Shown: piece after piece, positions 4,805 through 5,512 of the stretch | How positions within the stretch are numbered: the stretch's first letter is position 1 | Layout: the number at the start of each line of letters is the position of its first letter | Assembly: GCA_002878135.1 (NCBI GenBank) | Contig: PNIT01000112.1 | Location: forward strand, 1 to 33,911 | Reading direction: 5' to 3' | From: Candidatus Aciduliprofundum sp. | GTDB lineage: Archaea; Thermoplasmatota; Thermoplasmata; Thermoplasmatales; ARK-15 | Length of the DNA: 33,911 nt | The notes under the pieces: model-generated | What the model saw: only the letters and a program-made list of their open reading frames with translations | What the model was told of the DNA's origin: nothing | The model's database searches: none | Made by a program: the position numbers and the translations under genes

Positions 4805-4981
4805 ATGAACCAGGATGAAAAAACCGTCCACCTTAGGCTCAAGGATAATCCGGATATAACAGTTGAAGAGGTCTATAATCTCATGGAGGACCTCAGGAAA
4901 AAATATCCAGACAGGGAGATTTTCTATGACGGTGATCTCCAGGCAATATGCAGCAGGCCAAAAAGGCAAAGACCGAAATAA
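4805..4981 (+). CDS. Small hypothetical protein, 58 aa (MNQDEKTVHLRLKDNPDITVEEVYNLMEDLRKKYPDREIFYDGDLQAICSRPKRQRPK)
   Basis: Hand translation; below the length cutoff of the supplied ORF track. T/A-rich TATA-like TTTTTTATTA centred about 26 nt upstream of the ATG, the spacing seen at other leaderless starts in this window. Confidence 0.6.
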   Translation: MNQDEKTVHLRLKDNPDITVEEVYNLMEDLRKKYPDREIFYDGDLQAICSRPKRQRPK

Positions 4982-4993
4982 TTAATGGAAATG

Positions 4994-5001
4994 TTTAAAT
5001 A
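4994..5001 (+). promoter_or_regulatory. TATA box (TTTAAATA) of the SSB gene
   Basis: Predicted TSS at about 5022-5024 using the ~26-nt spacing seen at leaderless starts elsewhere in the window. Confidence 0.5.
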
Positions 5002-5021: not shown

Positions 5022-5066
5022 TGAACGGAATCACTCTTTTCCGACAGGCGAGGAGTAAACCGTTCA
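5022..5066 (+). promoter_or_regulatory. Stem-loop leader of the SSB gene
   Basis: TGAACGG (5022-5028) pairs perfectly with CCGTTCA (5060-5066); inner stem ACTC(TTT) (5033-5039) pairs with (GAG)GAGT (5050-5056) using two G-U pairs. Confidence 0.55.
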
Positions 5067-5089
5067 AAGAAAAAAAGAAGGAAGAAAGT

Positions 5090-5512
5090 ATGGAAAACGT
5101 AACGAAAATAAAAGACCTTAGCCCTGAATCAAAAAGGGTTAATGTTTTGGGAAAAGTGACAAGTGTTGGAGAGACCAAGGAGATACAGACAAGATATGGA
5201 GAAAGCAGGAAGCTTACAGAGGTAGTCATAGGAGACGAGACGGGACTAATAACTTTGACACTCTGGGGGGACCAGTCAAACGATATATCCCAGGGAGATA
5301 CACTCTACATAGACAATGGATACGTAACTCTTGTGAGGGGCCATATGAGGCTCAACGTGGGCAAGTACGGCTCTATTAAGAAGAGCGATTCTGCAATAGA
5401 GAGCGTGAACACTGAGAACGATCTCAGTGCCCAGGAACACCAGCAGGAGTTTAGGTCAGAAAGAAGGTCATTCAATCGTGGTGGAAGAAGGGACTTTAAG
5501 AGAAGGTTTTAA
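5090..5512 (+). CDS. OB-fold single-stranded DNA-binding protein with Arg-rich C-terminal tail
   Basis: VNVLGKVTSVGETKEIQTRYGESRKLTEVVIGDETGLITLTLWGDQS is an RPA/SSB OB fold; tail RSERRSFNRGGRRDFKRRF. Confidence 0.85.
   Translation: MENVTKIKDLSPESKRVNVLGKVTSVGETKEIQTRYGESRKLTEVVIGDETGLITLTLWGDQSNDISQGDTLYIDNGYVTLVRGHMRLNVGKYGSIKKSDSAIESVNTENDLSAQEHQQEFRSERRSFNRGGRRDFKRRF

Follow-up and report, generated by a model that had tools for sequence, protein, structure and literature searches.

Many genes of these archaea appear leaderless, so a leader kept class-wide before one gene is a notable exception. The window analysed here, an entire contig of 33,911 nt (PNIT01000112.1) from a Candidatus Aciduliprofundum genome of 1.37 Mb, contains such a gene, ssb. 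A sequence-only reading had proposed that the ssb mRNA starts at a two-part stem-loop followed by a purine-rich tract, and that this leader might be autoregulatory or stabilising. The layout of hairpin and bare purine tract is repeated before ssb across the large class Thermoplasmata, which makes a genuine control function probable, and the leader is most likely a cis-acting element of the ssb mRNA.

The SSB protein is assigned by Pfam to Ssb-like_OB. Among structural matches of its 140 residues, a Sulfolobus-type SSB (1o7i) is the best (E 1e-16), and SOSS-B1 is more remote. The tails of its orthologues are mostly R-rich, often contain G as well, and in many cases terminate in RRF or RRY. The product is an OB protein for single-stranded nucleic acid, as in operators of the T4 gene 32 type. 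The nearest named carriers of the same ssb are MAGs labelled Euryarchaeota and Thermoplasmata archaeon. Upstream, a small ORF of 58 aa (window 4805-4981, + strand), for which no Pfam match was found, ends 12 nt 5' of the ssb TATA box.

Table 1. Features of the ssb gene and its leader, in window coordinates
Feature	Position	Strand	Remarks
TATA box TTTAAATA	4994..5001	+	purine-rich GGAAAT (BRE-like) just 5'
Predicted transcription start	5022..5024	+	TATA+28; coincides with hairpin base 1
Outer stem, 5' arm UGAACGG	5022..5028	+	fold prediction, genus comparison
Inner stem, 5' arm ACUCUUUUCC	5033..5042	+	CUNUUUUCC invariant across the genus
Inner stem, 3' arm GGCGAGGAGU	5047..5056	+	fold prediction, genus comparison
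Outer stem, 3' arm CCGUUCA	5060..5066	+	fold prediction, genus comparison
Purine tract	5067..5089	+	96% purine, largely unpaired; AAGGAAG 5078-5084, a weak non-canonical RBS conserved in ssb leaders
ssb	5090..5512	+	140 aa; single OB fold, SsoSSB/SOSS-B type; R-rich tail, last residues RRDFKRRF

The TATA box and the ATG lie where the sequence-only reading had placed them (Table 1). The distance from the TATA-like box to the hairpin is also 28 nt in both genus mates and is 31 nt in the sister genus. The papers available to us contained no start-site map for Thermoplasma, no earlier account of the ssb leader and no biochemical results on leaders of this kind.

The hairpin itself is present as described, with an outer stem of 7 bp (TGAACGG with CCGTTCA) enclosing an inner stem. 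In the latter, ACTCTTT (5033-5039) forms 7 pairs, including two U-G, with GAGGAGT (5050-5056), and CC (5041-5042) with GG (5047-5048) extends this to 7+2 bp. The predicted fold has an energy of -19.7 kcal/mol (z -3.97; equalled by 1 of 200 shuffles). When 341 upstream regions of this and related genomes are ranked, the 75-nt leader is among the top 0.6%. The z values are equally extreme in the genus mates (-3.9 and -4.2) and the sister genus (-4.5). A perfect 7-bp repeat turns up in about 3% of shuffles at the predicted start and in 26% anywhere in 100 nt; by itself the repeat is unimpressive, and the weight rests on the whole fold and its recurrence. In three genus members the outer stem is found once per genome, at ssb, which speaks against a mobile or repeated hairpin. 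None of the Rfam 15 covariance models matches the leader at gathering score, or at E up to 1.

Within the genus, 95.8% of alignment cells pair in the register given here, compared with no more than 51% in shifted registers. Since the outer stem never varies, it is silent on covariation. In the inner stem, one change affects both sides (C-G to G-U) and two affect a single side; in the shuffle control for the pair count, 172 of 500 shuffles did as well, with three sequences being too few for significance. Of the two inner-stem arms, the 5' one is the more conserved within the genus. Across genera, the loops of short hairpins are misaligned by MAFFT, so formal pair counts are usable only in the window's genus; the pair count for f4g12 gave no excess over shuffles.

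Placement of the hairpin is informative over a much wider range. Orthologues were sought in 61 relatives and then in 200 members of the class and 117 of the order, and each leader was scored by its best hairpin beginning 26-31 nt past the first base of the best TATA-like box, a range set after inspection of the first leader set. Significance was taken as p<=0.05 against dinucleotide shuffles, of which there were 60, giving a floor of p 0.016. The test took only leaders with a clear TATA box (f15, f27, f28, f30 and others were omitted), the background came from sampled contigs, and TATA boxes and start codons were chosen automatically. By this measure, 57% of 60 ssb leaders have a significant hairpin; among 173 other genes whose TATA-like box lies at a comparable distance, the share is 4.6% (Mann-Whitney 5e-14). 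Related species in this comparison are not independent of each other; with 25 genus or family means set against the background, the value is 2e-7. Applied unchanged to 36 leaders fetched later, the test gave 64% at p<=0.05 (1.5e-8 versus the same background); all 36 are from family f6 and related to species already seen, making this replication within a family rather than in a fully independent lineage.

Over all ssb leaders, hairpin onset peaks at TATA+28. The sequence and size of the hairpin vary, and it starts at the predicted +1 irrespective of its size, its sequence or the length of the leader. Several of the misses arise from the choice of a wrong TATA-like box, several genera have short hairpins that are not significant individually, and in f6g8 the hairpin is apparently absent. 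This comparison of orthologous leaders, which the sequence-only reading had itself suggested, favours structure, with the outer stem uninformative on covariation within the genus.

Strand and sequence comparisons indicate the level at which the hairpin works. From the start site to -12, the sense strand folds better than the antisense by a mean of 2.5 kcal/mol, while other genes have no such bias, indicating that selection acts on the RNA. Among the better supported cases there are 23 distinct outer stems, and stem sequences differ by genus, a divergence that argues against a DNA operator.

The purine-rich tract between hairpin and ATG is equally unusual. Its 96% purine over the last 23 nt 5' of the ATG is matched by 0 of 495 intergenic controls, and in the window it is predicted to be about 80% unpaired (mean unpaired probability 0.8). 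Among 55 ssb leaders from the order, 84% have AAGGA and 51% have AGGAAG within 20 nt of the start, and none has a canonical Shine-Dalgarno sequence (GGAGG, GAGGT or GGTGA). For operon-internal genes of the same genomes, the values are 35% for GGAG/GAGG and 4% for AGGAAG. The 16S gene was not found in this assembly. Several families outside the order also have AAGGAAGNAU. The tract may simply be a ribosome-binding site.

Together, these comparisons support a two-part leader that is conserved in position, structure and tract, is specific to ssb and acts as RNA. The idea of a structured 5' UTR beginning at the predicted start is borne out by its class-wide placement, RNA-level action and ssb specificity.

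What such a leader might do is suggested by two lines of work. The T4 single-strand-binding protein, gp32, is a repressor of its own mRNA, acting at a folded 5' element and at the unstructured tract beside it, in which the ribosome site lies (PMC535899). SsoSSB has similar affinities for RNA and DNA; its RNA binding is positively cooperative, each monomer covering 6-7 nt, and it melts an RNA hairpin (PMC5346138). By analogy with gp32, and given the RNA binding of the Sulfolobus protein, SSB may repress translation of its own message through the leader, a reading to which we give slightly less than even chances. When SSB is in excess over the available single-stranded DNA, free protein would turn to its own mRNA. 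Three or four monomers, at the site size of the Sulfolobus homologue, would cover the exposed purines and keep ribosomes from entering, and the hairpin would serve as the 5' boundary or assembly site for the SSB cluster. Held somewhat more tentatively still is the wider version, a class-wide archaeal autogenous leader like that of gp32, with structure at mRNA base 1, free sequence and the purine tract as the putative SSB site. If SSB does control itself in this way, the leader would be a cellular archaeal counterpart of the phage gp32 paradigm, and a physiological function would be found for the RNA binding reported of archaeal SSB.

The likeness to the gene 32 operator of T4 and RB69 (PMC535899) lies in the arrangement: in both, the leader belongs to the mRNA that encodes a single-strand-binding protein, and a 5' folded element is followed by an unstructured tract over the ribosome-binding site, here by prediction. 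However, the T4 element is a pseudoknot of ~28 nt, whereas the ssb leaders have simple hairpins of varying size, and complementarity between loop and ribosome site is not above shuffles across genera. The T4 tract has UUAAA/UAAA repeats, whereas the ssb tract is purine with AAGGAAG; the two proteins belong to different families; and regulation is proven for gene 32 and proposed by analogy for ssb. Lacking the pseudoknot and the UUAAA repeats, the leader is not a member of the T4 operator family, though it may work alike. The archaeal S15, eL15 and L4 leaders (PMC7247131) are likewise structured, were also deduced from comparisons and are presumed to be autogenous, but they belong to other genes, ribosomal protein genes only, and have other structures. 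The STAXI motif, in the part of its description available to us (PMC2864571), is also a structured element linked to ssb and other DNA-handling genes; there it consists of tandem pseudoknots suggested to function as single-stranded DNA and is not given as a leader at an mRNA start.

The main rival to autogenous repression, though on balance an unlikely one, is a constitutive stabiliser of the 5' end. The hairpin would leave no unpaired 5' end and so shield the ssb mRNA from 5'-end-dependent decay, with no SSB feedback, and the purines would keep the ribosome site open in a much-needed mRNA that is not leaderless. Stem-loops of the ompA type, with the hairpin at the extreme 5' end, stabilise mRNA. 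With its hairpin predicted to sit right at the 5' terminus, the ssb leader offers a simple case in which such placement can be tested. The indifference of this placement to hairpin size, sequence and leader length fits a pure position-and-pairing requirement, and the predicted pairing at base 1 is exactly what a stabiliser needs, which makes this the main rival. Unlike the ompA type, however, the ssb hairpin is confined to ssb and comes with an unusual ribosome site that is itself conserved, which stabilisation leaves unexplained. Moreover, there is no enrichment among 42 leadered genes that combine a canonical Shine-Dalgarno sequence with a TATA box at leader distance (mean z 0.09; 3, or 7%, significant), and among 110 leadered genes without a near TATA box 4.5% have a significant hairpin. 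A general need for a stabiliser is thus not supported by the leadered genes of these genomes outside ssb; ssb alone would have to require one. With 3/42, and 4.6% of the 173 background genes, the hairpin as a generic trait of leadered mRNAs is not supported either.

It is improbable that the leader is read by something other than SSB, such as another RNA-binding protein, temperature or a small RNA. A GUCU/AGAC part of the stem recurs across many f6 genera, hinting at sequence recognition, but the stem sequence is unrelated among families, and no other gene was found consistently carrying the layout. At 18 loci of the RPA paralogue, judged by inspection, none was seen, several of the RPA starts being poorly placed. 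A regulon sharing the AAGGAAGU..AUGGA tract was considered and rejected: the remaining matches are scattered, and those that recur in f4g6 sit within an open frame.

Sequestration of the ribosome site by the pyrimidine-rich inner arm, as a hairpin switch or pseudoknot, is very improbable. In the window's genus, ACUNUUUUCC can form 9 of 10 pairs with GGAAGAAAGU just 5' of the AUG (in the window, 5033-5042 with 5080-5089), and the duplex has a p of 0.02-0.11 with the hairpin shuffled. This is suggestive, but over 24 genera the mean z is about -0.15, which is no signal, the rival hairpin is far more stable, and the tract is largely unpaired. Equally remote is a chance structure or a DNA-level operator: the 7-bp repeat alone is not rare, but the fixed distance from the TATA box recurs in the second sample, folding is strand-asymmetric, and the stems, which differ in sequence, share no operator sequence.

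A few further observations concern individual loci. The strongest single match outside ssb is a CAGACAAAATCTTTTTGTCTG hairpin at TATA+30 before L070:5461-6556 (- strand), a gene for what we take, from its sequence by eye, to be an Ada/MGMT-like alkyltransferase, probably for DNA repair. Also among the best non-ssb matches is a long hairpin, GUGCACUCCUCUAU...AUAG..GGAGUG, at TATA+26..28 in L061 and L047 (f4 g6), 5' of a gene for a solute-binding-protein-like product of ~1430 aa. There a canonical Shine-Dalgarno sequence, GGGAGGAU, follows the hairpin, whose CUCCU could pair with GGGAGGAU. In f6 g11 ssb leaders (e.g. L078 and L073), UCUAGAGAC is present in two tandem copies, and the GUCUUU 5' arm could pair with either.
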